From NCBI RefSeq assembly GCF_009363075.1, contig NZ_CP045293.1, positions 1,674,001 through 1,738,000 of the forward strand: a stretch of 64,000 nt of DNA. Direction: 5' to 3'. The number at the start of each line of letters is the position of its first letter. Positions within the stretch are counted from its first letter, which is position 1. The notes under the pieces are model-generated. The model did not search any database, was not told the DNA's origin, and worked only from the letters and a program-made list of their open reading frames with translations. Positions 38,120 through 56,019 of this stretch are shown piece by piece. The position numbers and the translations under genes are program-made. Source of the DNA: Paenibacillus guangzhouensis (lineage in GTDB: Bacteria > Bacillota > Bacilli > Paenibacillales > Paenibacillaceae).

Positions 38120-38797
38120 TTGAAAAGAAACGTATTATATATTGAAGATAATGAGAAAATAGGCAGTCTGCTAAAAGAAGAATTGGAACAGCGAGGATAT
38201 TCGGTTCGGTGGCTGCTTTCTGGTGAAGGAGCCGAAAGAGAAGTAAATCAGCATGAAGTAGTTATTTTGGATATCATGTTACCCGGTTTAGACGGATTTA
38301 CAGTGGGAAAACGATTAAAGAAAGCAGCTCCTGCTGTTCCTATTTTGCTGTTATCTGCTCGAACATCGATAGATGACAAGGTAGATGGTTTACAATTTGC
38401 TGATGACTATTTAACGAAACCATTCCATACGGATGAATTGGTTGCAAGATTAGAAGTATTAATCCGTCGAAGAGGTGGAACACATTCCGTACGCATTTCA
38501 TTAGGAGATCATATTGAAGTAGATACGGAAGTCCAAATGGTATATGACAAACGCACAGGGGAAGAAATAATATTGACTGGGAAACAACATCAAATTTTAA
38601 TGTACTTCTTACGCCACCCCAATCAAGTTATACCAAAAGAACAAATCTATGAAGCAATTTGGCAAGAAACTTATATCACTGGTGATAAAACCATAATGGT
38701 ACATATCCATCGACTGCGTCAAAAGCTGGAACGTCATCCCGATTCCCCAGAGATAATTGAAACGTTGAAGGGAATCGGCTACCGGGTGAAACGATGA
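38120..38797 (+). CDS. OmpR-family response regulator
   Basis: A 225-residue two-component response regulator. The receiver domain has the acidic pair in YIEDN, phosphoacceptor D51 in VVILDIMLPGLDG, S79 and K100 (DDYLTKPF). The C-terminal winged helix (about residues 130-225) contains HIHRLRQKLERHPDSPEIIE and GIGYRVKR. TTG 38120 has AAAGAGGG upstream. It overlaps the kinase gene by 4 bases. The linked ABC exporter downstream suggests control of a peptide-antibiotic or lantibiotic defence system. The TAAGA boxes at 32676 and 36778 are candidate binding sites. Confidence 0.9.
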   Translation: MKRNVLYIEDNEKIGSLLKEELEQRGYSVRWLLSGEGAEREVNQHEVVILDIMLPGLDGFTVGKRLKKAAPAVPILLLSARTSIDDKVDGLQFADDYLTKPFHTDELVARLEVLIRRRGGTHSVRISLGDHIEVDTEVQMVYDKRTGEEIILTGKQHQILMYFLRHPNQVIPKEQIYEAIWQETYITGDKTIMVHIHRLRQKLERHPDSPEIIETLKGIGYRVKR

Positions 38798-39804
38798 AGC
38801 AGAATAGATCATTATTTCGTCGTTTTCTAAAAGTACATTTTCTATTTATCTTTCTTCCTCCCATTGTACTTATTTTCTTCAGTGCGTTTGTTGGGGTTTC
38901 TGATACCCATGAAAAAGATCTACATACGGCAAATCTATTTTACGTTACCGTGCTATTGTTTGGTTTTATTATTGTCGCATTTGTTATATTATCTTGGCTG
39001 TTCTTCTTGAAACTTCAAAAACGTCTCGCCCGCTTACAGGAAGTCATGTCATCTTCTGCTAAAAATAACTCATTTCCGAAACCCATATCTGTTCAAGCGG
39101 ATCGTATGGATGAGATAGACCAGTTAGGAAGTTCTTTTAATTCGATGATTCAGCAGCTTGAAGACAGTCGTAAACGAGCATATGAAGAGGAAATGTTACG
39201 ACATCGACTCATTGCGAATTTATCTCACGACTTACGAACGCCACTTACCATTTTGAGAGGACATGTCACCAAATTAAATAAAGAATCCATGAGTTTAGAA
39301 GGACAAAACTCGTTAACAGAGATCAACCATACGATTACAAGAGTCGGAGATCTAATGGATGATTTACTTACCTATACATTGCTTACCTCAGGAAAACATC
39401 CTTTTGGGCCCGTTTCAACAGATATTGGGCGTTTAGTAAGGGCATCTGTTGCTGCGTGGTATCCTGTATTTGAGGAAAAAGAAATCCAGCTCGATGTTGA
39501 TTTACCGGCAGACGAAACATTTTATTGGGAAGCAGATCCTACATGGATGACACGGGTTCTGGATAATTTATTTCAGAATATTATTCGCCATGCAGCAGAG
39601 GGGAAATATGCAAACATTGTGGTTGATGTAGAAAAAGAACAGATCATTGTTGCAGACAGAGGTCCAGGTATGGATAACTCTTCCTATGAGCGTGGGGCGG
39701 GGATTGGTTTATCGACTTCAAATTATATGTTGAAAAAAATGAAGCTGAAGGCTGACTTTACATCAAATGAAAATGGCACAAAAGTAGCTATTGGTAGAGC
39801 GTAA
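38794..39804 (+). CDS. Sensor histidine kinase with short extracellular loop
   Basis: A 336-residue membrane kinase. Two transmembrane helices (FLFIFLPPIVLIFFSAFVGV; FYVTVLLFGFIIVAFVILSW) are separated by only about 20 residues, so the signal is probably sensed in or at the membrane. A HAMP-like linker follows, then the phosphoacceptor box NLSHDLRTPLTIL (about residues 140-152). The ATP-binding domain has NLFQNIIRHA (N box), DRGPGM (G1) and GAGIGLS (G2). ATGA overlap with the regulator gene indicates coupled translation. Confidence 0.9.
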   Translation: MKQNRSLFRRFLKVHFLFIFLPPIVLIFFSAFVGVSDTHEKDLHTANLFYVTVLLFGFIIVAFVILSWLFFLKLQKRLARLQEVMSSSAKNNSFPKPISVQADRMDEIDQLGSSFNSMIQQLEDSRKRAYEEEMLRHRLIANLSHDLRTPLTILRGHVTKLNKESMSLEGQNSLTEINHTITRVGDLMDDLLTYTLLTSGKHPFGPVSTDIGRLVRASVAAWYPVFEEKEIQLDVDLPADETFYWEADPTWMTRVLDNLFQNIIRHAAEGKYANIVVDVEKEQIIVADRGPGMDNSSYERGAGIGLSTSNYMLKKMKLKADFTSNENGTKVAIGRA

Positions 39805-39896
39805 CTTAAAGTTAACCCAGAAGTAAACAGCATGATAACCGAGATGTAACTTTGCTTCTTTATAATGAGAACCATAACAGAAAGGGAGTGTTATGG

Positions 39897-40610
39897 TTGC
39901 TTACAATTAATAAGTTGGTGAAACATCGCGGAACTGGGGTAATCCTATCAGGTATCAGTTTTAAAGCTAGACCAGGCAGAGTAACTGGTTTTTTAGGTCC
40001 CAATGGGGCAGGTAAAAGTTCTACACTTCGCATCCTCCTTGGATTAGATCGTGCCACCTCAGGGAGTGCACTAATTCATGGCAAGCCATTCGCAGAATTA
40101 CATAATCCTCTAACAACAGTAGGCGCCGCACTTGATGGATTTGGAGCCCATCGTATGCGAACAGGACGGGCACATTTGCGTTGGATTGCTCGTGCCGCAG
40201 GATTGCCTCGTTCACGTGTCGAGGAAGTTCTGGAAATCGTAGGACTTACGAATGCAGCTGGGAAAAGGGTTGGGAGTTATTCCCTTGGTATGGGGAGAAG
40301 ACTTGGAATGGCAGCTGCACTTCTTGGTGATCCCGAAATATTGGTCTTAGATGAACCCGTCAACGGGCTCGACCCACAAGGAATTCGCTGGATTCGGACA
40401 TTTCTACGTGAACGTGCTGCGTCTGGTAACACGGTGTTGCTATCCAGTCATCTCATGGGAGAACTTGCAGAGACTGTTGATGATGTGGTGATTATTAATC
40501 ATGGAAAAATCGTTGCAGATGGAACATTGGAAGAAATAATAGGTAACCATTCTACGCTGGAGGAAGCCTTTTTTGCCCTGACATCTGAACATGCAGGTGA
40601 TGTTCTATGA
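39897..40610 (+). CDS. ABC exporter ATP-binding protein (BcrA/SpaF type)
   Basis: A 237-residue cytoplasmic ATPase. It has Walker A GPNGAGKSS (about residues 36-44), a signature motif in YSLGMGRRLGMAAALL, Walker B ILVLDEPVNGLDP, and the H-loop in LLSSHLM. It is of the type that drives bacitracin or lantibiotic exporters. TTG 39897 has AAAGGGAG 8 bases upstream. It overlaps the first permease gene by 4 bases. The three ABC genes lie directly behind the two-component system, about 90 bases after the kinase. Confidence 0.88.
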   Translation: MLTINKLVKHRGTGVILSGISFKARPGRVTGFLGPNGAGKSSTLRILLGLDRATSGSALIHGKPFAELHNPLTTVGAALDGFGAHRMRTGRAHLRWIARAAGLPRSRVEEVLEIVGLTNAAGKRVGSYSLGMGRRLGMAAALLGDPEILVLDEPVNGLDPQGIRWIRTFLRERAASGNTVLLSSHLMGELAETVDDVVIINHGKIVADGTLEEIIGNHSTLEEAFFALTSEHAGDVL

Positions 40611-41392
40611 GAGCATTCAACGCAGAATTATCTAAATTGTTCTCCCTGCCGAGCATTTGGCTTGCCTTTCTTATTGGAGCATTTGCCCCAGCGGTCGTTG
40701 CTGCCTTGGACAGTATAGCACAAAAAGAGGAGATAATAGCTGGAATTAGCACACGGTTATCAGAAGTTGGTTATATTGGGTTAGGTTTTGGTGTACAAGG
40801 TGTCATCATCCTTGGTGTGCTTGCTGTTAGCAGTGAGTATTTGACAGAGAGCAGCGAGTCGGGTGGAGGACAACAGATTACAACAAGTTTAACGGTTGTT
40901 TCATCACGACTTCATTTTTTGCTGGCAAAAGCATGCGCTGTGACGTTGATCAGCATACTGCTTTGTATTGTTGCTATGATGACAATTGTGCCAACAACGC
41001 ATTTTATACTTGGTGAATATGCACCTGCATTTGAATGGTCTAGACTGATCGGTGCAGTTTGTTACTGGACATTCACCGCTCTTTTAGCATTTGGGATTAC
41101 TTTGCTAACGAAGAATGGCATCATCCCGCTTGCTGTACTCATCATAAATTCATCCGTTGTATCATTTAGTGTCCTGCTTTCTAAGATTTCAAGGTTGGCG
41201 TTCTACTTACCAGATCGGGCTGGACTAGAAATGTTTATGTTTACGAGTGACACATTTCACACGCCGTCCACAGGCAGTTTTTTCGATAGATTTCACACCC
41301 CGTTCACAGGCGGTTTAGTCATGTTTGCTTGGGTAGCTGTTTTTTTCATTATTGCAGCTATTGTATTCCATAGGAGGGACGTTGCAGCATGA
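40607..41392 (+). CDS. ABC exporter permease, first subunit
   Basis: A 261-residue membrane protein with about six hydrophobic segments, beginning with LSKLFSLPSIWLAFLIGAFA. It resembles ABC-2-type permeases of peptide-antibiotic exporters. The long SGGGQQITTSLTVVSSRLHF loop resembles the coupling segment of its partner. It overlaps the ATPase gene before and the second permease after by 4 bases each, so all three should be made in fixed ratio. Confidence 0.8.
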   Translation: MRAFNAELSKLFSLPSIWLAFLIGAFAPAVVAALDSIAQKEEIIAGISTRLSEVGYIGLGFGVQGVIILGVLAVSSEYLTESSESGGGQQITTSLTVVSSRLHFLLAKACAVTLISILLCIVAMMTIVPTTHFILGEYAPAFEWSRLIGAVCYWTFTALLAFGITLLTKNGIIPLAVLIINSSVVSFSVLLSKISRLAFYLPDRAGLEMFMFTSDTFHTPSTGSFFDRFHTPFTGGLVMFAWVAVFFIIAAIVFHRRDVAA

Positions 41393-42147
41393 GTGTCTCT
41401 TCTGGTAGAAAGATAACACAAATCCTTGGTGCTGAACTGGACAAATTAGTAACATTACCATGGATATGGCTCACTCTAATTGGTACATTCATTCTTAATT
41501 TAGTTTTAGCCGCAGCTTTTACTGCTGTTGGTCTACAAGGGGCAGTAGGAACGCAAAGTATGCTGAATATAGGACTTGCTTCTATGAGATATCTTCAAGC
41601 AGGATTCATTATTCTTGGTATCCTAGCTACTTGTTCGGAGTATACTGGTGGACAGATTCGAACTACTTTAATTACGATACCTTGGCGTGGATTTCAATTA
41701 TCCACGAAGCATTTGGCATTGGCGTTAATAACAATTCCAGCGGCTGTTATTATTGCTGCATCAGGTGTACTTTATACTTTTATTAGGATGAGAGACACAG
41801 CAGTAGGGTTTGAAATAGACAAAATGATAGAAGCATTATTAGGTGCAACAGGCTATCTAATATTAACCACACTTCTCAGCGCGGCTATAGGTGCTATTTT
41901 AAGACGAACCACTCCTGCTTTAGTGGTACTGCTTGGTTATTATTTCGTTGTCAGTCCATTGTCGAGAGATTTTCTATCTAGGTTTAAAAAGTATTTTCCG
42001 GATACGGCAGGATATTATATGTATATACCGCCTTCACCTGATGAAATAAATGTCCTTACACCAATGGAAGGGACAGGTATTTTAATGTTATGGACACTGA
42101 TCTTTATTACAGTAGCAATTGTATTTTACCGTAAACGAGATGCCTAA
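41389..42147 (+). CDS. ABC exporter permease, second subunit
   Basis: A 252-residue membrane protein with about six hydrophobic segments, homologous in layout to the preceding permease (LDKLVTLPWIWLTLIGTFIL; SEYTGGQIRTTLITIP). The two would form a heterodimeric channel with the ATPase, as in lantibiotic-immunity FEG transporters. It ends the operon; the family B hairpin 60 bases downstream may terminate transcription. Confidence 0.8.
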   Translation: MSVSSGRKITQILGAELDKLVTLPWIWLTLIGTFILNLVLAAAFTAVGLQGAVGTQSMLNIGLASMRYLQAGFIILGILATCSEYTGGQIRTTLITIPWRGFQLSTKHLALALITIPAAVIIAASGVLYTFIRMRDTAVGFEIDKMIEALLGATGYLILTTLLSAAIGAILRRTTPALVVLLGYYFVVSPLSRDFLSRFKKYFPDTAGYYMYIPPSPDEINVLTPMEGTGILMLWTLIFITVAIVFYRKRDA

Positions 42148-43920: not shown

Positions 43921-46179
43921 ATGTGTTTCCGGACAGATATCCATTGGCCATCATTTCTATCGCGGCATGACATGCTGTGGAAGACCAAGCCGATTAGCTG
44001 GAGCGAAGGAGCTTTTATCGGAAATGGGCTTCTTGGAGCCATGATATATAGCGAAGAACACCGTGATCAACGTCATGTGCTCAGATTTGTGCTCGGACGT
44101 ACGGACGTGACAGCTTCGCGCACAGGTGGCCCCAATAACTTTCCCGTACGGGTGCCTATCGGAGAGCTGGTATTAGAAATGGAAGGATGGATCTATCAGC
44201 CTTGCGAGATTCGGATTGACTTGTGGAATGCAGAAATGCGGGCGTTTATCCCAACAACGAAGGGAGAAGTAAGGTTACGGGCTTTGGTTCATGCCATATC
44301 ACCTATTTTGTTCATTGAACTTGACACCGATGAAGGAGAACAAGGGGCGATAATGAATTGGTACGCCTATCCTGAACTGAGCCCGATCTTGAAAAATGCG
44401 GATGGGATAAATTTGAATCAATATATTCCCGACACTGCCGTAGAGAGGAACGAAGAGCAAGGAATTTACTACGGTGTTCAATACTACGGCGGAGACGAAG
44501 GCTGCACAACGGCATGGAAGTTCCATGATGTCGAAATGAACAGGGAGAATGGGGAAGATGGCGAGCATGGCGCCGAATACCGACGTAAGTGCCTACTGAC
44601 CGTGATGAAAGGAGTTTCCGATTCGGATCGTGAAAAGGCCGCCCAGGTGCTTGAAGAGATCAATCTCACAGAGTCCGGGTTAACTTCATGGATTGCTTCT
44701 CATCGTCAGTGGTGGCATGATTATTATCCCGCAAGCTTCATCTCGATTCCGGATATGCAGCTCGAGAGCTTTTACTGGATTCAGATGTATAAGCTGGCTT
44801 CCGCAACGAGAAAAGATCAGCTGCCCATAGATAATCAAGGCCCGTGGATGACGTCAACGCCGTGGCCGGGACTTTGGTTTAATATGAACGTCCAGATGAG
44901 CTATTCGCCAATGTATACCTCGAATCGGCTAGAACTAGGACAATCTCTTATTTCTTCGCTCCGGCAAAATGAGAAACAATTGATACATAACGTTCCTGAA
45001 CCGTTACGCAGTGATTCGGCCGGCCTCGGGCGGAGCAGCAGCTATGATCTGAACAGTCCGGTCGATGATGAAATTGGAAATTTGACGTGGCTCCTGCACA
45101 ACTGCTGGAGACATTATCGATATGCGATGGATGAGGAGCTGCTTCGTGACTTCTTATATCCGCTCCTTCGGCGCAGCATTTGCTTGTATTTGCATCTATT
45201 GGAGGAAGGGCAAGACGGCAGGCTTCATCTGCCTCACATGGTATCGCCTGAATATGGCTCCTTCAAACAACTCACTACCCGCGATTCCCATTACGATCTT
45301 TCGCTATTGCGCTGGGGTTGCGAAACGTTGCTGCAGGCATCGGAGAGGCTCAAGATTAAGGACTCGCTTCAGGCGCGATGGAATGAAGTTCTTGCCCGTC
45401 TGACGCCGCTTCCGGTTGATCCGACCACAGGCTACAGAATCGGGAAGGATCTCGGCCTCGAGTTCGGCCATAGGCATTTCAGCCATCAGCTAGCCGTATT
45501 TCCGCTGCACATTGCCGGTCATTCAGAGGAAGAACGGACAGTAGCGATCCGTACACTCAGACATTGGATCGCCATGGAAGGTGATCTTCGCGGATTCAGC
45601 TTCACCGGAGCGGCTTCGATAGCGGCATCGCTGGGCCTTGGCGATGAGGCGCTCGGCTATCTGCGCACCCTGATGCACTTCATGACACCGAATACGATGT
45701 ATAAAGAAGCGGGACCCGTCATTGAGACGCCTCTAGCTGGCGCGGAGGCGATTCATGATATGCTGCTCCAGAGCTGGGGAGACCTGATCCGGGTATTTCC
45801 CGCCGTTCCAGGCGAGTGGCAGGATGCCGTTATTCACAATCTGCGCGCTGAAGGCGGATTTCTTGTAAGCGCCGTCTACAGCGCCGGACGGACGGAGTTC
45901 ATTCGGATTCGTAGTCTAGTGGGTGAGCCCTGCCGCATACGTACCGATCTCACTGGCTTAGAACAGGGATTTATGATTGAATCGCAAGGGAAAAGTCTGG
46001 ACTACAAGTTGCATGAGGACCAGTCCATCGAAATATCGCTGGTACCAGGTGAGGAAGCGGTTATCTACGCAGCAGACGGCAGACAGCCCGGAAAAATTGC
46101 ACCGATACCGGCTGAATCTGGCATGTGCAATTTATTTGGAGGGAAGAAACCTTGGCGATTATACGGATTTCCCAAATAA
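43921..46179 (+). CDS. Glycoside hydrolase family 95-like protein
   Basis: A 752-residue glycosidase without signal peptide, so probably cytoplasmic. The N-terminal beta domain opens in the GH95 manner (ISWSEGAFIGNGLLGAMIYS; FPVRVPIGELVLEMEG). The (alpha/alpha)6 part contains PGLWFNMNVQMSYSPMYTSN (about residues 316-336), where GH95 enzymes carry catalytic Asn residues, and later GHRHFSHQLAVFPLHIAGHS and LQSWGDLIRVFPAVPGEW. Known GH95 enzymes remove alpha-L-fucose or alpha-L-galactose. AAAGGAGG precedes ATG 43921. It heads an operon with the AraC-type regulator and probably acts on imported oligosaccharides. Confidence 0.78.
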   Translation: MCFRTDIHWPSFLSRHDMLWKTKPISWSEGAFIGNGLLGAMIYSEEHRDQRHVLRFVLGRTDVTASRTGGPNNFPVRVPIGELVLEMEGWIYQPCEIRIDLWNAEMRAFIPTTKGEVRLRALVHAISPILFIELDTDEGEQGAIMNWYAYPELSPILKNADGINLNQYIPDTAVERNEEQGIYYGVQYYGGDEGCTTAWKFHDVEMNRENGEDGEHGAEYRRKCLLTVMKGVSDSDREKAAQVLEEINLTESGLTSWIASHRQWWHDYYPASFISIPDMQLESFYWIQMYKLASATRKDQLPIDNQGPWMTSTPWPGLWFNMNVQMSYSPMYTSNRLELGQSLISSLRQNEKQLIHNVPEPLRSDSAGLGRSSSYDLNSPVDDEIGNLTWLLHNCWRHYRYAMDEELLRDFLYPLLRRSICLYLHLLEEGQDGRLHLPHMVSPEYGSFKQLTTRDSHYDLSLLRWGCETLLQASERLKIKDSLQARWNEVLARLTPLPVDPTTGYRIGKDLGLEFGHRHFSHQLAVFPLHIAGHSEEERTVAIRTLRHWIAMEGDLRGFSFTGAASIAASLGLGDEALGYLRTLMHFMTPNTMYKEAGPVIETPLAGAEAIHDMLLQSWGDLIRVFPAVPGEWQDAVIHNLRAEGGFLVSAVYSAGRTEFIRIRSLVGEPCRIRTDLTGLEQGFMIESQGKSLDYKLHEDQSIEISLVPGEEAVIYAADGRQPGKIAPIPAESGMCNLFGGKKPWRLYGFPK

Positions 46180-46197
46180 GCCCCGGGAGGGAATCGG

Positions 46198-48528
46198 ATG
46201 ATGTTCAAGCAGCTGCGCAAGTACAACCGAAGCGTGATTGTAACCTGGTTGGTTTCCTATATCACCGTTCTTATGGTACCGACGCTCATCAGTTTTGTCA
46301 TGTATTCGATCTCGTTCAACCAGGTCAAGGCCGAGACCAGCCGGGCGAATGATCTACTGCTCGAGCAGATGGAAATGTCCATTGACAGCAAGCTGAAGGG
46401 TCTTGATCAACTAAGCCTTGAAATCGCGTTAAACCGTAACATATCGAGCTTCTCCAGTATTGATTCTCCGCTGTTGGACGCGCACTACTATGATCTGTTT
46501 CAAATTTCGGAGAGTCTGAGAACCTATAAGAACGCCAATGATTACATTGATCAAATCTATGTGTGGTATACGAATAGTGACACAGTCATATCCACTTATG
46601 ATCATATGAACAGCGAAGGTTTGTATCAAAAGCTGCGCCCCCAGCAAAATACGACTTTCGAGGCGTGGAACGGCTTATTTGAACATAAATATGTAAACGC
46701 TTATACACCGATGAAGTACTGGGATGACGGCACGGTGGCCCCGGTGGTCGTATTCGCACGCTCACTCGTCTTCAACATGCCAGGCCAGCCGCCTGCCATC
46801 GTCTTATTCGTCATGAAGGATGCCAAGTTAATCGAGAGTGCTCCTCGGTATCCGGATGCAAGCATGTTCATTCTGGATGCGGAAAACCGCTACATCGCTG
46901 CTCCGGATCATTCCGGAACACTGCCGCAGCGGCTCGGATACGAAGAGCTTCAGGGGCAACGGGGGATGGTGTATAAGGAGGTACAGGAACATCAGGCGGC
47001 AGTCTCCTTTATTACGTCCAAAATTACGGGCTGGAAATACGTATCCGTCGTACCGGCAACCCTGTTCAACGAGAAAATGGAGTATATGCGCAAGTTGACC
47101 TGGATCAGCATCGGGCTGTGTTTTTTGGTCGGCGGCGTCATCTGCGTCCTCTTTCTGCGTAAAAATTACATGCCAATCCAAGTCATGCTGCAGAGTCTTT
47201 CCCATAAATTCGGATTGCGATTCGACGGCGGTTCGAGTGAATATTCCTTTTTGCAAGGTGCTATCCATGATTATTTTACGGAAAAAGAAGATATGCGTGC
47301 CCGCTTGGACAAGCACCGGAATACGATCCGCGCCCATCTGCTCCGCAGACTGCTGAAAGGGGCTTTAGAGCAAGATGCACTCTTGCATGAATCGCTAGCC
47401 GCTCATCACATCCGGTTTTTGTCCGAACGGTTTGTCGTCATGCTCATATCGGTGGATGATTACGGAAAATTCGAACAATACGGCTCGGAAGACCTCTCGG
47501 ATAAAAAACAGCAAATGCTGCATTTTATTCTGACAAACGTGCTGGAAGATACATCAGCAGGCGAGGCTCTGGTATACGCCACAGATATGAATGATATTCT
47601 TGCATCGGTTGTGAATTTCCAAAACAGCACTTCTGTAGAACAGGAAGAGCGGATCCTGGAGCGCATTACGGCACAGATTCGTGAATTTATGCATGAGCAG
47701 ATGCAGGTGAATCTGACGATCGCGGTTGGTGAAGTTCATTCCCACATCTATGGCATTACGCAGTCCTACCAGGAGGCACTGGATGCGCTTGAATACCGGA
47801 TTGTACTTGGGAGTGGGCAATTCATCCGATATGTGGATACACATGTGAAGCATGCATCGGGACATCATTATTATTATCCTCTAAGCGTGGAACAGCAGCT
47901 GATTTATGTGGTGAAAAGCGGGAATTATCCGAAAGCGGAAGCTCTGCTTGAGGATATTTTTAGGGAAAACTTCTCGGGTCGCCCCGTATCCGTACCTCTT
48001 GCAAAATGCCTCATGTACAACCTGGCTAGCACGATGCTGAATACACTCGATGAGGTGAGCGTAACAAGCAAGCGTATGCTAGAATTGCATCTCCTCGATG
48101 TGGAGCAGCTGCTCGCATGTGAACATGTGCTGCAGATGAAGGAACAGATGAAGGGCAAACTGAAGCAGGTCTGTGAATGGATCCTAACCGAGAAGAGGGA
48201 TCATCACCGTTATTTAATTGAAGATGTACAGTGTTATATCGCGAATCAATTACATGACCCCAATCTGAATATTTCCATGATCGGGGACGCCTTCCGAATG
48301 ACCCCTTCTTACATATCGCGCCTGTATAAAGATCACACGGGCGAGACGCTGCTCGATACGATTAACCGTTCGCGTCTTGCCGAAGCTAAGGATCTCCTAC
48401 AGGAACACAAGTTGACAGTCAATGAAGTTGCTGGTCGCGTAGGTTATGCGGATGTCAGCACATTTGTGAGGACGTTCAAAAAATTCGAAGGCACCACGCC
48501 TGGAGCATATCAAAAGGCGGCAAATTAA
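46198..48528 (+). CDS. Membrane-anchored AraC-family sensor-regulator
   Basis: A 776-residue one-component regulator of the Paenibacillus type. Transmembrane helix 1 (WLVSYITVLMVPTLISFVMY, about residues 16-35), an extracellular Cache-like sensor region to about 300, helix 2 (ISIGLCFLVGGVICVLFL), a cytoplasmic middle, then the C-terminal AraC double HTH (from about 674: LNISMIGDAFRMTPSYISRL; LTVNEVAGRVGYADVSTFVR). It would sense extracellular sugar and activate the locus. It lies 18 bases after the GH95-like gene. GGGAGGG precedes ATG 46198/46201. A strong terminator follows, so the transporter genes have their own promoter. Confidence 0.88.
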   Translation: MMFKQLRKYNRSVIVTWLVSYITVLMVPTLISFVMYSISFNQVKAETSRANDLLLEQMEMSIDSKLKGLDQLSLEIALNRNISSFSSIDSPLLDAHYYDLFQISESLRTYKNANDYIDQIYVWYTNSDTVISTYDHMNSEGLYQKLRPQQNTTFEAWNGLFEHKYVNAYTPMKYWDDGTVAPVVVFARSLVFNMPGQPPAIVLFVMKDAKLIESAPRYPDASMFILDAENRYIAAPDHSGTLPQRLGYEELQGQRGMVYKEVQEHQAAVSFITSKITGWKYVSVVPATLFNEKMEYMRKLTWISIGLCFLVGGVICVLFLRKNYMPIQVMLQSLSHKFGLRFDGGSSEYSFLQGAIHDYFTEKEDMRARLDKHRNTIRAHLLRRLLKGALEQDALLHESLAAHHIRFLSERFVVMLISVDDYGKFEQYGSEDLSDKKQQMLHFILTNVLEDTSAGEALVYATDMNDILASVVNFQNSTSVEQEERILERITAQIREFMHEQMQVNLTIAVGEVHSHIYGITQSYQEALDALEYRIVLGSGQFIRYVDTHVKHASGHHYYYPLSVEQQLIYVVKSGNYPKAEALLEDIFRENFSGRPVSVPLAKCLMYNLASTMLNTLDEVSVTSKRMLELHLLDVEQLLACEHVLQMKEQMKGKLKQVCEWILTEKRDHHRYLIEDVQCYIANQLHDPNLNISMIGDAFRMTPSYISRLYKDHTGETLLDTINRSRLAEAKDLLQEHKLTVNEVAGRVGYADVSTFVRTFKKFEGTTPGAYQKAAN

Positions 48529-48542
48529 GCGATGCAATTAAA

Positions 48543-48582
48543 AAAATCACAGGCATTTTACAAATTGCCTGTGATTTTATGT
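48543..48582 (+). terminator. Rho-independent terminator
   Basis: AAAATCACAGGCA (48543-48555) pairs perfectly with TGCCTGTGATTTT (48566-48578), followed by ATGTTTTG. It separates the GH95/AraC operon from the importer operon. Confidence 0.85.
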
Positions 48583-48666
48583 TTTGTCTATGTTCACTTC
48601 TGCGGATTTGTTGAACAATAGGCATCGAGTACTTCATTTAAACAATCCTGAATCGGAGGAATGGGG

Positions 48667-50330
48667 ATGGCGCAATATTTTCAGCTAAGGAAAAGCTTGT
48701 TCAGACCATTGAAAACGGGAGTAACTGGCATCCTGCTTATGAGCTTGGTACTCGCGGGATGCTCCCAAGAAGAGAGTAAGGGGGGACGGAAGCAAAATCG
48801 AACCTTCAGGAAGGCAAAAACGCTGCATCAGTTCTCGGCACGTCGTATCCGCTGAAGAGCAGCGAGGGGATTACCTCTTGGGAAGCCCTAAATATGAATG
48901 CGGTTACATTTTTTCCGAATCTAGCCGATACGCCATTCGGCAAAGCGCTTGCTGATAAAACGGGCGTTCAAGTGAAGTACATCCATCCGAATGAGCAGCA
49001 GACCAAAGAACAATTCAATCTGATGATTGCTTCGGATGAGCTTCCAGATACGATCGAATACGACTGGACGGGACGAAGTGCGGGGTCTTATCCCGGAGGA
49101 CCGGAGAAAGCAATCAAAGACGGGGTGATCTTGGAGCTGAATGACATCATTGACAAATATGCGCCGAACCTGAAGAAGAAGCTGGAAGAAGACAAGGAAC
49201 TCGACAAAATGGTGAAAACGGACAGCGGCAAATATTATGTATTCCCGATGATCCGTAATCCAGCTGGGCTTGTATTCCGCGGTCCGATGATCCGCAAAGA
49301 CTGGTTGGACGATTTGAATCTCCCTGTGCCAACGACGATTGATGAGTGGGAAACCACGTTAAAGGCGTTCAAGGAGAAAAAAGGCGCGAAAGCGCCGCTT
49401 AGCGTAACGTACACAGGCGGGAACTTTGAAATTCGTGATGCCTTTATCGGAGCGTATCATACGTCCAACACTTTTTATATTGGCGATGAAGGGAAAGTGA
49501 AATATGGTCCCGTGGATCCGGAGTATAAAGAATTCTTGACACTGTTCCGCAAATGGTTTGCGGAGGGCTTATTCGATAAGGACTTTGCCCTTACCGATTC
49601 GAAGGCACTGGACAACAAGATGTTGACAGGTCAGACCGGCGCAACGGTGCATCAACTCAGCGGCGGGATAGGCAAGTGGATGGATGCGATGAAGAAGCAG
49701 GATCCAAAGTTTAAACTCGTGGGTGCTCCATATCCATCGTTGAATAAAGGCGAGATTCCGTTTATTGGACAGCGGGATTTCAAATACAACCCGGGCGCCA
49801 GCAAAGCCATAACGACAGCCGCCAAAAATCCGGAGTTGGTTGCGAAGTGGCTGGATTACGCCTACAGCGATGAAGGTGCTATGCTGTTTAACTTTGGCAT
49901 CGAAGGTGAGAGCTACACGATGGAGAACGGAACCCCTGTCTACACCAATCAGATTAAAAATAATGAAAAATATACCCTGCAGCAGATGGTATCGATCTAC
50001 GCCAAGCCGAATGGTCCATACGAAGTAGATTCGCGCCGTAACTGGAACACATACCCCGAGCAGGATGAAGCCGTTAAGATTTGGTCCAATACCGAAGCAG
50101 AGAAGCATATATTACCGGCTTTCCTGACCCCGACGGATGAAGAAAGCAAGGAGCTCGGAAAAATCATGACGAACGTAAACAATTATAAGGAAGAGATGTT
50201 CGTGAAGTTCATCGTCGGTAAGGAAGCAATCGAAAACTACGATCAGTACGTTGCACAGATCAAGAAGCTGGGCATCGACCGGGCGGTCGAAATCTATCAG
50301 AGTGCATTGGATCGTTATAACAAGCGATAA
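48667..50330 (+). CDS. Sugar ABC transporter substrate-binding lipoprotein, frameshifted at a G6 tract
   Basis: An LplA/YtcQ-type binding protein. The first frame (48667-48855) encodes a signal peptide with lipobox LVLAGC; the second gives the mature protein (NLADTPFGKALADKTGVQVK; ASDELPDTIEYDWTGRSAG), about 500 residues to 50330. The break lies in a run of six G (48780-48785). Seven G would join the frames directly as ...ESKGGTEAKSNLQ. This may be a real mutation, slipped-strand phase variation, or an assembly error. ATG 48667 is chosen because GGAGGA lies 6 bases upstream. Two permease genes follow. Confidence 0.85.
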
Positions 50331-50404
50331 TGATGCCGGTCCGGAGGGAACGGTGACAGAAGCCTCTCTCCGGGCGGCAGATTGATCATGAGGAGTGACA
50401 AGGC

Positions 50405-51376
50405 ATGGCAAAACATCCGTCTCAAGTAGAGCATTCGACCCGGCTGCCTTATGCCCGTACCAAAACATTAGGCCGGTGGGGACTGCCGAAAGATATCCGG
50501 AAAAACCCCTGGTTGTATATCATGCTGACCCCCGTACTGTTGTACTTCACCGTATTCAACTACTATCCGATGTACGGGGCCCTGATTGCTTTTAAAGATT
50601 TTTCCCCGCGGCTCGGCATTATGGGCAGTCCATGGGTTGGTTGGGAGCATTTCGAGTCTTTTTTTCAAGGAATCTACTTCTGGCGCATTATCAAGAATAC
50701 GCTGTTAATCAGCATTTATGAGCTTATTTTCGCTTTTCCCGCACCGCTGATTCTGGCCCTTTTGTTAAACGAAGTGAGGAAAACGTTGTTCAAGCGCACG
50801 GTGCAGACATTAACGTATATGCCCCATTTTATCTCGCTGGTTGTCGTATGCGGCATTATCAAAGAGTTTACGATGAGTGACGGGATCATTAACGATCTGT
50901 TTTCGTTTTTTGGCTGGGAGCGGGTATCGATGCTGCTTGAATCGGAATATTTCCGGACTATCTTTATCTCGTCGGGGATCTGGCAAAATATCGGGTGGGG
51001 AACCATCATTTATTTGGCAGCGTTGGCCGGTATTGACCAGGAACAGTACGAAGCAGCCCGAATGGACGGGGCAAGTCGCTGGAAGCAGATGCTACATGTG
51101 ACTTTGCCGGGAATCCTACCCACAATTATCATCCTCTTCATCCTCGAGATGGGCAGAATTATGAATGTCGGAGGCGAGAAAATCATTCTACTCTATAATC
51201 CGTCCATCTACGATACGGCGGATGTGATCAGTTCTTATGTATACCGAATGGGACTGCAGGAATTCGATTACAGCTTCGGGTCAGCCGTGGGACTATTCAA
51301 CTCTGCGATTAATTTTACGCTGGTCATATGCTCCAACTGGCTAAGCCGGAAGATGAACAATACAAGCTTGTGGTAG
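50405..51376 (+). CDS. Sugar ABC transporter permease (LplB type)
   Basis: A 323-residue permease with six transmembrane helices. The N-terminal signature is LYIMLTPVLLYFTVFNYYPM with GALIAFKDFSP, and the cytoplasmic EAA loop reads EQYEAARMDGASRWKQMLHV (about residues 217-236), the contact site for the ATPase. It is paired with the permease at 51390. No ATPase gene is present, as is normal for these systems, which share a genome-encoded MsmX-type ATPase. GGAGTGACAAGGC precedes ATG 50405. Confidence 0.9.
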   Translation: MAKHPSQVEHSTRLPYARTKTLGRWGLPKDIRKNPWLYIMLTPVLLYFTVFNYYPMYGALIAFKDFSPRLGIMGSPWVGWEHFESFFQGIYFWRIIKNTLLISIYELIFAFPAPLILALLLNEVRKTLFKRTVQTLTYMPHFISLVVVCGIIKEFTMSDGIINDLFSFFGWERVSMLLESEYFRTIFISSGIWQNIGWGTIIYLAALAGIDQEQYEAARMDGASRWKQMLHVTLPGILPTIIILFILEMGRIMNVGGEKIILLYNPSIYDTADVISSYVYRMGLQEFDYSFGSAVGLFNSAINFTLVICSNWLSRKMNNTSLW

Positions 51377-51389
51377 GGGGAATGATCAC

Positions 51390-52286
51390 ATGAGGCGAGG
51401 AAGAGAAGGAGCAGGAGCATCCACCCTCGGGAAGATCTTTGATGTCTTTAACTATACCTTTTTAACGGTATTAACGATTTGTACGCTGTATCCTTTGGTT
51501 TACGTGTTATTCGCTTCTTTAAGCGAGCCAACCTTATATATGCAGCATTCAGGGATTTTGTGGAAGCCGCTGCATTTCAACTTGAATGCCTATCGTCTGG
51601 TTTTCGAGAATCCGATGATCATTCGAGGATATATCAATACGTTTATCGTGCTTGCAGGCGGTCTTGTGCTGAATATGATTCTTACAGCCTTTGGGGCATA
51701 TGCGTTATCTCGGAAAGGACTTCGGTACCGCAAGCAGCTCATGTTGTTTATCGTATTTACGATGTTTTTTAACGGGGGACTCATTCCTTTATATTTCACG
51801 GTAAAAGGGCTCGGGCTGACGAACACGTTATGGTCATTGATCATCCCGCAGGCGATATCGGCATTCAATCTGATCATTATGAGAACCGCTTTCGAAGCTG
51901 TGCCGGACAGCCTGGAAGAATCGGCGAAAATCGATGGGGCGAATGAGTTCGTGATCCTGTTCCGCATTATGATTCCGCTGTGCATGCCTGTCATGGCCGT
52001 CATGCTGTTGTATTACGGGGTCAGCCACTGGAATTCATGGTTTAGCGCGATGATCTATGTACAGGACCGTTCCCTTTACCCGCTTCAGCTCGTCTTACGT
52101 GAGTTGCTGCTGCTGAATGATGCCAGCTCGATGGCTACAGGCGCAACCGGCGGGGACGTCGCGATGATCGGTGAGACACTTAAACACGCGACTATTATCG
52201 TGGCGACCGTTCCGATTCTGTTCGTATACCCGTTTTTGCAAAAATATTTCGTCAAAGGTGCCATGATCGGTGCCATAAAAGGTTAA
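51390..52286 (+). CDS. Sugar ABC transporter permease (YtcP/LplC type)
   Basis: A 298-residue second permease with six helices. LTVLTICTLYPLVYVLFASL opens the first helix, and the EAA-like loop is DSLEESAKIDGANEFVILFR (about residues 172-191). The C-terminus KYFVKGAMIGAIKG is the family hallmark. It lies 13 bases after the LplB-type gene and forms the import channel with it. Confidence 0.9.
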   Translation: MRRGREGAGASTLGKIFDVFNYTFLTVLTICTLYPLVYVLFASLSEPTLYMQHSGILWKPLHFNLNAYRLVFENPMIIRGYINTFIVLAGGLVLNMILTAFGAYALSRKGLRYRKQLMLFIVFTMFFNGGLIPLYFTVKGLGLTNTLWSLIIPQAISAFNLIIMRTAFEAVPDSLEESAKIDGANEFVILFRIMIPLCMPVMAVMLLYYGVSHWNSWFSAMIYVQDRSLYPLQLVLRELLLLNDASSMATGATGGDVAMIGETLKHATIIVATVPILFVYPFLQKYFVKGAMIGAIKG

Positions 52287-52317
52287 ACAATACAGGAAAA
52301 ATCTAGGAGGTCATGTG

Positions 52318-53442
52318 ATGAATACGTTTGCGACTGGAAGTGATCCCAAACGCGATGAATGGTGGAGGCAGGCTCAGCAAAAAGTTGACCTCTTAATAGC
52401 CAAAGGACCAGAACTGGCTCCGCATGCCGCGAAGGGCGGGGAGTATGATGGATTGACGCTGGACAATTGGATTTCAGGTTTTTGGCCAGGGATGCTATGG
52501 ATCTACTATGACATCACACGGGATGAGAAGTACCGGAACGCCGCATGGGAATGGGATGTCCGCATCGAGCGGCTGATGCTTGAAGAGAACCGTTTCCATC
52601 ATGACGTCGGTTTTCAATTTCTGCCGACCTCCGTTCTGAAATATAAGCTAACTGGCGATCCAGACGGTAGACGGAGAGGGTTCGCAGCCGCCAACTTCCT
52701 AGCCGGACGCTTTAACTTAGCTGGACAATATCTACGGGCATGGAACAAGGATTTACCGGGCTGGGCAATCATTGACTGCCTCATGAATTTGTCTATTCTA
52801 TTCTGGGCGGCAGAGGAGAGTGGTGATCCGCGGTTCACCCATATTGCCAAAGCGCATGCTGATATGGCGCTGAAGCATATGATTCGACCCGACGGATCCA
52901 CATGCCATATCGCTGTGTTTGATCCTGCAAGCGGCGACCTGCAGGAATATAAAGGGGGGCAGGGATATGCACCGGATTCCTGCTGGTCAAGGGGGAATGC
53001 TTGGGCGTTGTACGGTATGGCGAATACGTACCGGTATACGGGAGATATCAAGTACCTGCATGCATCCCAGCAGGTTGCCCATTACTTTATAGCCTCTCTA
53101 CCGGAGGATCATGTTCCGCCTTGGGACTTCCGTGTCCCGAACCAGGAAGCGGAGCCGCGAGATACTTCCGCTGCGGCAATAGCCGCATCTGGATTGCTCG
53201 AGCTTGCTGCCTTAACCTCTCCGGAAGTAGGGACCGTGTACCATCAAGCCGCTGTGCGCATCCTTACATCTTTATCCGAGAAATATTCAGCATTCCGTGA
53301 CACTGGCCATGAAGGCATTCTGTACGGCGCGACAGGTCATAAGCCGGAGGGGGTTAATATCCACGTGTCCTTGATTTACGGGGATTATTATTATGTAGAG
53401 GCGCTGGCCAAACTTCGCGGCTGGTCCCATCGTACATTTTAG
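52318..53442 (+). CDS. Unsaturated glucuronyl hydrolase (glycoside hydrolase family 88)
   Basis: A cytoplasmic enzyme of about 374 residues that removes the unsaturated uronic acid left at the end of oligosaccharides by polysaccharide lyases. The fold is an alpha/alpha barrel. LDNWISGFWPGMLWIYYDIT is a family signature, and the two catalytic Asp candidates are in NRFHHDVGF (about D96) and GWAIIDCLMNL (about D153), close to the D88/D149 pair of the Bacillus GL1 enzyme. ATG 52318 follows AGGAGG at 7 bases; GTG 52315 is too close. It lies between the importer and the PL6 lyase, so it should finish their products. Confidence 0.88.
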   Translation: MNTFATGSDPKRDEWWRQAQQKVDLLIAKGPELAPHAAKGGEYDGLTLDNWISGFWPGMLWIYYDITRDEKYRNAAWEWDVRIERLMLEENRFHHDVGFQFLPTSVLKYKLTGDPDGRRRGFAAANFLAGRFNLAGQYLRAWNKDLPGWAIIDCLMNLSILFWAAEESGDPRFTHIAKAHADMALKHMIRPDGSTCHIAVFDPASGDLQEYKGGQGYAPDSCWSRGNAWALYGMANTYRYTGDIKYLHASQQVAHYFIASLPEDHVPPWDFRVPNQEAEPRDTSAAAIAASGLLELAALTSPEVGTVYHQAAVRILTSLSEKYSAFRDTGHEGILYGATGHKPEGVNIHVSLIYGDYYYVEALAKLRGWSHRTF

Positions 53443-53475
53443 CATTTTATTTGATGAAAAATGAGGTGGAGTGTA

Positions 53476-55857
53476 TTGGATACGCTATTGACAAAAATGT
53501 GGAAATGTCGATATTCCGCTAGAATCTGCCTGGAATTAGCATTCCTGCTGATCCTGGGATCACTAACACTACAACCATCACATGCTGTGGGAGCCACAAT
53601 CGAGACAGGAGGGGACGAAATGACACTAGATAAACTGGTGGTAAGTGGCATCACGGCCAGCTCATCCCAGCCGAATACCAATTTCGTACCTGCCAATGTA
53701 TTGGACGGGATCTGGGGAGAGGATGAGGTCAGCCAGCAAAGTCGCTGGTCGGCATCCGGACAGGGAGAATGGCTTCAATTCGATCTTGGGGAGGCACAGA
53801 AAGTAACCCATGTGAAAATCGCCTTTTTGAATGCAAGAGAACGACTTTCGAGCTTTGATATGACAATATCTGATTCACCCGATTTCAGATCGGGAATGAC
53901 CGTAATGCACAAGCAGTTCAGTCGTCAGCTTCAGGCTGAAGACAGCATTCTGCAGACCTACATGATTGATAATCCGGTGAAGGCCAGATATTTGCGTCTT
54001 ACCGGTTATGGTAATAATGCAAGCGGAAGCTCGGGCAAATGGAACAGCATCATGGAAGTAGAATTATATACGGGAACCCTGCCAGTGACGGGGGAGCCGA
54101 ATCTCCCTCCTGCGGATGCAGGGAATGTCAACGAAGGCGATGTAGAACCTCCGGTACTTAAGCATATTAAAGTCCAGACTGCGAAGGAGCTGCAGCAGGC
54201 GCTGGACCAGGCGGTGAGCGGCACATGGATCGAACTTCAAAATGGAAGCTATGAACAAAACGGTCCATTTGTGATTCAGAAGAAGAACGGAAGTGCAGCT
54301 TATCCGATCCGCATTACGGCAGCAAATCCCGGCAAAGCGGTAATCACAGGCAACAGTTACATGCATATCGAAGATTCAAGTTACGTCGAGGTGGGCGGAC
54401 TTAAGTTCCAGAACGGAATCGGGGATGAAGCAGGTAACCAGTCGCTGATTGAGCGAGGTCTTGCTAACCGGACGCTGACCGGTGTCCACCCAGGTGTGCA
54501 ATTGCAGAGTGCCAGCCACATTTCTATTCTCGGCAATACGTTTGCTCTAGACGAGACCAACCAGCCGTATAGGTTCAAGGTGGATAACCGTTCCGTATGG
54601 TGCCTAGTGAATGTCGAAGGAAGCTGCCGGTACGGCGACAGCAGCTATGAACCGAGCGCCGAAGTGTACAACGGTCCTACGCCATATGAAGACAATAACT
54701 TGCTGACGGATAACGGGACGAACCGGCATTATATCCGGGTTGAAGGGAAGAGCAGCCATAATCGCATCGCTTATAACGACATTGGGCCGAAGAAGGGCTT
54801 TGGCGCGGTAGTGATTTATGACGGAGAGGGGCACAGCGGACAAAGCATCTCACAATACGATGTCATTGAATACAATCATTTCCATGATATCGGTCCGCGG
54901 GTCAGTAATGGTCTGGAGGCGATCCGACTTGGACTATCTAGTCTATCCCTGTATTCCGGCCATGTGACCATCCAGCATAATTTATTTGACGGGTTAAATG
55001 GGGAAGACGAAATTATTTCGGTGAAAAGCAGTGATAACATAATCCGTTATAATACGATACGCAACTCCTATGGTGGCATCGTATCACGACACGGCAACCG
55101 TAACAGCTTCTATGGCAATTTTATACTCGGAGACGGCAAAACACCGGGCCTCAGCGGTTTCCGCATCTATGGCAACGATCACAAAATCTTCAACAATTAT
55201 ATGGAGGGGCTAACCGATAAGGTTATTCGTCTTGACGGCGGTACGCATGACGGGGGGCCTGAAGGTGGAACGAATCCAACCGTACGGTGGGGAGGAGATA
55301 AGGAGCAAACCGCTGTGCTGAACAGTCTTCCAGAAGAGGAAAGAACAGAGCTCTTGCGTGGGCACTGGAGACAGTACAACGTCCAGATTTTCCACAATAC
55401 GATTGTCAATGTAGGCGACAGCACTCCTGCGATCACGCTTGGCGGAAGAACCTATCAACCCGTAGGAACGAAAATATACAACAATCTAATCTTCAGCAAT
55501 GCAGGCACGATCTTTAATGAAACCACTGCAATGATGAAAGCTCCGGCAACGGAAAGACCTGAATATAAAGGCAATATGGTTGAAGGAATTGCATCAGCTT
55601 CGAACAATCCCATTGTGGGCGGAACGGTCAAAAAAGTAGATCTGCGGTTGGTCCGCGGTATAGACGGATTAATCCGCTTGTCCATTTACAGTCCTGCCAT
55701 TGATGCAGCCGTCAGCCCCTTGTTCACGCTGGATGACATGGATGGGCAGATGCGGTATTCGCCAGATGTGGGTGCCGATGAATATCATGCTAGCGGATCT
55801 AAGGAGAACCGCCCGCTTATGACTGCAGATGTGGGTCCTGGGGCTTTATGGAAGTGA
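53476..55857 (+). CDS. Secreted polysaccharide lyase family 6 with discoidin (F5/8 type C) domain
   Basis: A 793-residue exported lyase. The signal peptide (RICLELAFLLILGSLTLQPS, ending near HAVGA) is followed by a discoidin-like carbohydrate-binding domain (about residues 45-200: SSQPNTNFVPANVLDGIW, GEWLQFDLGEAQKVTHVKIA). The PL6 beta-helix starts near 230 (GTWIELQNGSYEQNGPFVIQ). The catalytic pair fits K517 in ISVKSSDN and R538 in VSRHGN, 21 residues apart as in chondroitinase B (K250/R271). PL6 enzymes cleave dermatan sulfate or alginate. TTG 53476 is chosen from AGGTGGAG; ATG 53461 is the alternative. Last gene of the importer operon. Confidence 0.88.
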   Translation: MDTLLTKMWKCRYSARICLELAFLLILGSLTLQPSHAVGATIETGGDEMTLDKLVVSGITASSSQPNTNFVPANVLDGIWGEDEVSQQSRWSASGQGEWLQFDLGEAQKVTHVKIAFLNARERLSSFDMTISDSPDFRSGMTVMHKQFSRQLQAEDSILQTYMIDNPVKARYLRLTGYGNNASGSSGKWNSIMEVELYTGTLPVTGEPNLPPADAGNVNEGDVEPPVLKHIKVQTAKELQQALDQAVSGTWIELQNGSYEQNGPFVIQKKNGSAAYPIRITAANPGKAVITGNSYMHIEDSSYVEVGGLKFQNGIGDEAGNQSLIERGLANRTLTGVHPGVQLQSASHISILGNTFALDETNQPYRFKVDNRSVWCLVNVEGSCRYGDSSYEPSAEVYNGPTPYEDNNLLTDNGTNRHYIRVEGKSSHNRIAYNDIGPKKGFGAVVIYDGEGHSGQSISQYDVIEYNHFHDIGPRVSNGLEAIRLGLSSLSLYSGHVTIQHNLFDGLNGEDEIISVKSSDNIIRYNTIRNSYGGIVSRHGNRNSFYGNFILGDGKTPGLSGFRIYGNDHKIFNNYMEGLTDKVIRLDGGTHDGGPEGGTNPTVRWGGDKEQTAVLNSLPEEERTELLRGHWRQYNVQIFHNTIVNVGDSTPAITLGGRTYQPVGTKIYNNLIFSNAGTIFNETTAMMKAPATERPEYKGNMVEGIASASNNPIVGGTVKKVDLRLVRGIDGLIRLSIYSPAIDAAVSPLFTLDDMDGQMRYSPDVGADEYHASGSKENRPLMTADVGPGALWK

Positions 55858-55944
55858 TTCAAACCAGCCCGATCATTTGGTGGTGACCGGGTTGTTTTGA
55901 TAAATTAAATAATTGTCGAGGGACAATAACAATGTAATATTAGA

Positions 55945-56019
55945 AGCCGCTAATTATGCGGCTTTTTATTTTTATGAGATCAAGTTCTTCTCAAATCACG
56001 ATGACAAGAACTTGATCTC
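55945..56019 (+). repeat. Dispersed repeat family B, full copy
   Basis: AGCCGC/GCGGCT hairpin (55945-55963) with a T-rich tail, which may end the lyase operon. A perfect second inverted repeat follows: GAGATCAAGTTCTT (55976-55989) and AAGAACTTGATCTC (56006-56019). Confidence 0.75.

Follow-up and report, generated by a model that had tools for sequence, protein, structure and literature searches.

What is the substrate of the gene cluster occupying positions 43921-55857 of the window (the whole 64,000-nucleotide stretch of Paenibacillus guangzhouensis contig NZ_CP045293.1 analysed here, contig positions 1,674,001 to 1,738,000), and what does the glycoside hydrolase family 95 (GH95)-related enzyme at its head contribute? 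The open reading frame (ORF) list and Pfam matches place seven ORFs there, all on the plus strand, and bear out the gene classes named in a preliminary description: a GH95-related hydrolase (hereafter GH95L), a membrane AraC-type regulator, a solute-binding protein with two permeases, a GH88 enzyme and a polysaccharide lyase of family 6 (PL6). The locus is probably a lyase-import-GH88 system for a uronic-acid polysaccharide and represents a conserved gene set of soil bacteria. It is best read as a variant of this known type, to which an uncharacterised GH95-related enzyme has been joined.

The lyase, the importer and GH88

The lyase gene (53461..55857) encodes an exported or anchored protein with an N-terminal hydrophobic helix, an F5/8 type C (CBM32-like) domain (residues 64-200, 53650..54060; 55.5 bits) and a PL6 region in which both the profile (Pfam Chondroitinas_B, 138.7 bits, cut-off 24) and the β-helix fold are present. 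Within the catalytic core (residues 420-590, 54718..55230), Lys522 and Arg543 align with their counterparts in AlyGC and are invariant in all 27 rows of an alignment of the window protein with 26 PL6 stretches from related loci (alignment A2). The PL6 alginate lyases AlyGC (5gkd) and Patl3640 (7o77) and chondroitinase B (1dbg, 7o78) share with the window lyase the β-helix, the catalytic Lys/Arg and the Ca-site residues, at 23-27% identity. The GH88 protein (52315..53442; Pfam 49.3 bits, cut-off 26.6) has as its nearest solved relative the unsaturated glucuronyl hydrolase 1vd5 (2.5e-64), which we take to be the Bacillus sp. GL1 enzyme. By eye it has no signal peptide and is presumed to be cytoplasmic.

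The nearest solved relatives of the two permeases (50405..51376 and 51390..52286, both Pfam BPD_transp_1) are AlgM1 and AlgM2, of the AlgQ/AlgM1/AlgM2 alginate importer, presumably from Sphingomonas A1. The binding protein (48667..50330; Pfam SBP_bac_1) is nearest to AlgQ2, AlgQ1 and 5gub, the last being a glycosaminoglycan-disaccharide binder according to the excerpted text of PMC5430744. A control binding protein from another GH95L context scores highest against a different chain (194 bits, compared with 146 for AlgQ1), so the AlgQ-like match carries some weight. No ATPase gene for the importer lies within the locus.

Taken together, these proteins suggest the following route. The exported CBM32-PL6 enzyme would cut the polymer by Ca-assisted β-elimination, as its conserved residues and fold indicate, yielding oligosaccharides whose non-reducing end is an unsaturated uronate; the AlgQ-like lipoprotein and the two permeases would import them with the help of an ATPase encoded elsewhere; and GH88 would cleave off the unsaturated uronate in the cytoplasm. 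GH95L, also presumed cytoplasmic since no signal peptide was seen by eye, may remove a second sugar, probably α-linked and L-configured or similar, by an inverting Asn-assisted mechanism, which is the least sure step. Sensing of the inducer probably falls to the membrane AraC protein. That PL6 and GH88 together imply a uronate polymer cut by elimination had been proposed in the preliminary description, and the adjoining binding-protein importer and the conservation of the combination both support it.

A comparable arrangement is the glycosaminoglycan cluster of Streptobacillus moniliformis, where unsaturated disaccharides are likewise imported in a binding-protein-dependent manner (Smon0123) before a GH88 unsaturated glucuronyl hydrolase (Smon0127) acts on them; unlike in the window locus, no PL6 or GH95-type enzyme is mentioned in the excerpts of that article (PMC5430744). 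The window locus would be a Gram-positive lyase-import-GH88 system built on PL6. In line with the preliminary description, which knew of no such locus, no description of it was found in the available portions of the open-licence literature, where the relevant genome papers give no more than per-genome numbers of GH95, PL6 and GH88. Activity tests would extend the known substrates of PL6 or define a new glycoside hydrolase activity.

Conservation of the gene set in Paenibacillus

A pattern-based scan of GTDB genomes for relatives of GH95L, which for that reason under-samples the distant ones, returned 76 loci, 69 of them titled Paenibacillus; as contig ends cut some loci, counts of genes within them are lower bounds. 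All seven genes recur in identical order in seven loci (L003-L009), each from a different Paenibacillus genome other than that of the window, which answers the co-occurrence search for GH95, GH88 and PL6 proposed in the preliminary description. The AlgQ-like importer occurs together with GH95L in 47 of the 76 loci, and the run of AraC, binding protein and two permeases directly precedes GH95L in 37 of these and follows it in nine. Among the 47, PL6 is found in 31 loci and a PF05426 (Alginate_lyase) protein in 17, at least one of the two lyase types being present in 37; a canonical GH95 is found in none. Of the 15 loci assigned by the thresholds used neither to this importer class nor to the 14 with another importer type, eight have a lyase, and five of them show the importer run in a translated DNA search.

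In an unselected sample of 295 Paenibacillaceae genomes, a full-length GH95L (at least 38% identity) was found in 10, whereas some match, mostly to canonical GH95, was found in 245. Six genomes carry a PL6 of the window clade, and five of the six also possess GH95L, within about 9 kb (hypergeometric p of 4e-8 or 8e-8, counting nine or ten GH95L genomes and ignoring the relatedness of the genomes). A chance adjacency of PL6 and GH95L is rejected by the conserved order and by this co-occurrence. Twenty other genomes have PL6 matches spanning the core, and one of them (G241) has GH95L. The G241 genome also contains a locus (L097, 880-14931) with three PL6 genes, GH88, AraC and the same importer but no GH95L; in another genome, a locus (L101) has PL6, AraC and the importer, with neither GH88 nor GH95L recognised. 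These two loci indicate that the PL6-importer set can stand alone, GH95L being an associated module.

Several observations weigh against the lyase-import-GH88 reading. The absence of a recognised GH88 from L101 is one of them; GH88 is present in only 10 of the 47 importer loci, and 10 of the 47 lack a lyase in the fetched stretch, contig ends having cut some in both cases. The permease of the control importer is also nearest to AlgM1 (266 bits, versus 302 for the window permease), so this match is generic. Finally, the binding-protein gene of the window carries a frame break: the ORF at 48894-50330 has no signal because the reading frame, which has a lipoprotein-like start at 48667, breaks at a G-run near 48780-48785. 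The frame is intact (551-568 residues) in the five relatives whose lengths were seen (L003-L006 and L008), and the break is either a sequencing error or a recent inactivation.

Is the polymer alginate?

By score, the window PL6 is nearer to most alginate lyases than to chondroitinase B, and its nearest solved PL6 relatives are alginate lyases; in a tree of 52 frames that passed the profile filter and three solved segments, built without chondroitinase B, it belongs instead to a separate clade of 24 (100/99), remote from all three solved alginate lyases. Of the firm grouping with alginate lyases and action on alginate only that the preliminary description held would tell against its proposal, the grouping is seen in the scores and not in the tree.

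A locus that targets alginate, or a similar guluronate/mannuronate polymer, and in which GH88 handles the unsaturated alginate oligomers while GH95L is an accessory, would also agree with the AlgQ-like binding protein, with PF05426 in 17 of the 47 relatives sharing this importer and with two heparinase II/III-type proteins encoded outside the locus in the same genome; the heparinase II/III superfamily also includes oligoalginate lyases. The statement that no alginate-pathway gene is present was consequently too strong, although the genome indeed lacks any PF05426 match, which counts against alginate. A search for PL7 was uninformative, as none of the controls matched. The notion that the AlgM1 similarity demonstrates alginate import was rejected, given that the control importer matches nearly as well. 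Also against alginate, the polymer is not known to carry a second sugar that GH95L could act on.

Two sources make this alternative a serious one. Excerpts of PMC13274419, a paper of 2026, describe GH88 as helping to turn alginate oligomers into unsaturated monouronate and list an alginate-grown isolate with PL6, PL38 and GH88, contradicting the prior assumption that GH88 plays no part in alginate breakdown; those of PMC10847853 list PL6, PL15, PL17 and PL31 in the genome of P. tyrfis YSS-72.2.G2, which bears a GH95L locus (L033). The earlier judgement that alginate does not fit well is therefore not upheld, and we regard an alginate-type substrate as a real, albeit minority, possibility. GH95L loci also occur in P. 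chondroitinus (L071) and P. alginolyticus (L019); in the former, PL6, PF05426 and the same importer lie beside GH95L.

GH95L, an enzyme beside GH95

GH95L (43921..46179, 752 amino acids) was placed by Pfam, profile, tree and fold. Its description as GH95-like holds for the catalytic domain (103 bits, cut-off 27) and the C-terminal domain (44.6 bits, cut-off 27.6), while the GH95/GH65 N-terminal domain profile reaches only 14.5 bits, under the cut-off of 27.7; the N-terminal fold is nonetheless present by structure, in a model whose loops 310-320 and 515-521 are at a pLDDT below 50. The solved GH95 α-L-fucosidases/α-L-galactosidases (AfcA, 2eab; BACOVA_03438, 4ufc; FucOB, 7znz; also 2rdy) have in common with it the three-domain fold, the Asn-x-Asn pair, the acid Glu and the HRHxSH motif, at about 15-19% identity. 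The pair (N321, N323) and the general acid E444 are found in 42/42 rows of an alignment of the window protein with relatives from 41 of the 76 loci (alignment A1). In a tree based on one alignment, with six of these 42 rows and no GH139, GH95L nevertheless lies outside all 10 canonical and four solved GH95 rows, the separating branch having support of 100/100 and a length of 1.83, although the tool warned that long branches meet. Ordinary GH95 membership was rejected on this basis, which is the outcome that the preliminary description saw as contradicting it; the Pfam catalytic match stays. GH139 2-O-methyl-fucosidases (9hmb and 9hyq) match GH95L weakly by profile (6e-9 and 6e-6) and have Gln411-Asn412 where GH95L has Asn-x-Asn. 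In NCBIfam, no family scored above cut-off for GH95L, GH88, PL6 or a PF05426 relative.

The -1 subsite differs as well, when judged by the residue roles given for GH95 in the excerpted texts of PMC4491172, PMC10063614 and PMC12282258. The His/Thr column contacting C6 is a one-residue gap in GH95L, beside an invariant Trp319-Phe320; the stacking Trp of the GWS motif (9/10 canonical rows) is replaced by Phe559 in 42/42 rows; and the equivalent of AfcA D766, the Asp that activates the base (8/10 canonical rows), is Glu602 in 42/42. The second conserved His of the HPPFQIDGN loop is lost, with no His at that place in GH95L and E596 and A597 invariant. Invariance within the clade extends to Trp319-Phe320, Arg371, Arg557, Phe559 and Glu602. 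Neither Arg371 nor Arg557, both chosen by eye among 49 clade-specific positions, occurs in the canonical rows or in the other group that is nearest; one distant relative shares them. Two other assignments were rejected: Asp555 as the Asp766 equivalent, where a wider alignment places Glu602, and Trp319 as a replacement of the His/Thr residue, since it aligns with the preceding Tyr and the His/Thr column itself is gapped.

The inference of fucose or L-galactose side groups from GH95 is weak, because GH95L lies outside canonical GH95 and its -1 subsite differs. That GH95L amounts to a normal GH95 α-L-fucosidase or α-L-galactosidase, and the target a fucosylated or L-galactosylated uronate polymer, as first proposed, appears unlikely: besides the deleted C6-contact residue and the changes to Phe559 and Glu602, GH29 was found in none of the 47 importer loci, and a search of the genome with the FucI C-terminal family gave no match, although other fucose routes exist. 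In favour of an ordinary GH95 activity, loss of the second His is also seen in the canonical-branch protein L083 and in solved 8zbv, so that this criterion is not absolute. At the sequence level, GH95L is best read as an uncharacterised GH95-related enzyme, distant from and altered relative to those that remove fucose, and it marks a well-conserved branch beside GH95 that annotation may easily misname as fucosidase. More tentatively, and with the balance of probability against it, GH95L might found a new glycoside hydrolase family, or a new subfamily, within the GH65/GH95/GH139 group. With its rebuilt -1 subsite it would then remove an L-sugar other than fucose, perhaps an acidic one, from a uronate polysaccharide that is not yet described and that many Paenibacillus species use.

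Two further GH95-related forms were observed. A 1424-residue GH95L homologue of the same genus (L086, 1923-6197; 38% identity) has a C-terminal dockerin domain. An unnamed group of GH95-related proteins of about 740-800 residues (L087-L093) carries the Asp-to-Glu change, has about 28-35% identity to GH95L across the catalytic part and is possibly another uncharacterised branch.

The two remaining explanations are improbable. That GH95L and the PL6-GH88 set are mere neighbours without a common substrate would accord with the PL6-importer loci devoid of GH95L and with the 14 loci of the other importer type (lyase absent from 13 and present in one; GH29 in three, canonical GH95 in two), but GH95L directly adjoins the importer-regulator run in 46 of the 47 loci and lies within about 9 kb of PL6 in five of the six window-clade genomes. 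A dermatan-like or other glycosaminoglycan-type locus, with PL6 of chondroitinase B type and GH88 as unsaturated glucuronyl hydrolase on the Streptobacillus pattern, is similarly doubtful, although GH88 and the binding protein do match relatives of that type (see also the excerpts of PMC5430744).

Other features of the locus and genome

Elsewhere in the genome, KduI and five canonical GH95 are present, and six places match the GH88 profile, the locus copy included. One of these (L112) adjoins a heparinase II/III-type protein (L115) near 6.768 Mb, and the two possibly form a second uronate-oligosaccharide locus.

The AraC-type sensor/regulator (46198..48528, 776 amino acids), whose homologues adjoin the importer in relatives, matches HTH_18 (72.4 bits) and GGDEF_2, with dCache_1 below cut-off. 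Between its gene and that of the binding protein, a terminator-like hairpin with a 10-base loop (48543..48578, plus strand) was noted by eye, beyond the limits of the hairpin scan; it is followed by T-rich sequence and may split the operon or attenuate the transcription unit. A second terminator-like hairpin (55942..55966, plus strand) lies 3' of the lyase gene and is weak by itself, the scan having found 13 hairpins against 11.8 expected in shuffles. A promoter scan gave results at chance level only. Upstream of the locus, at 38120-42147, the translations indicate a two-component system followed by an ATP-binding cassette (ABC) transporter set.
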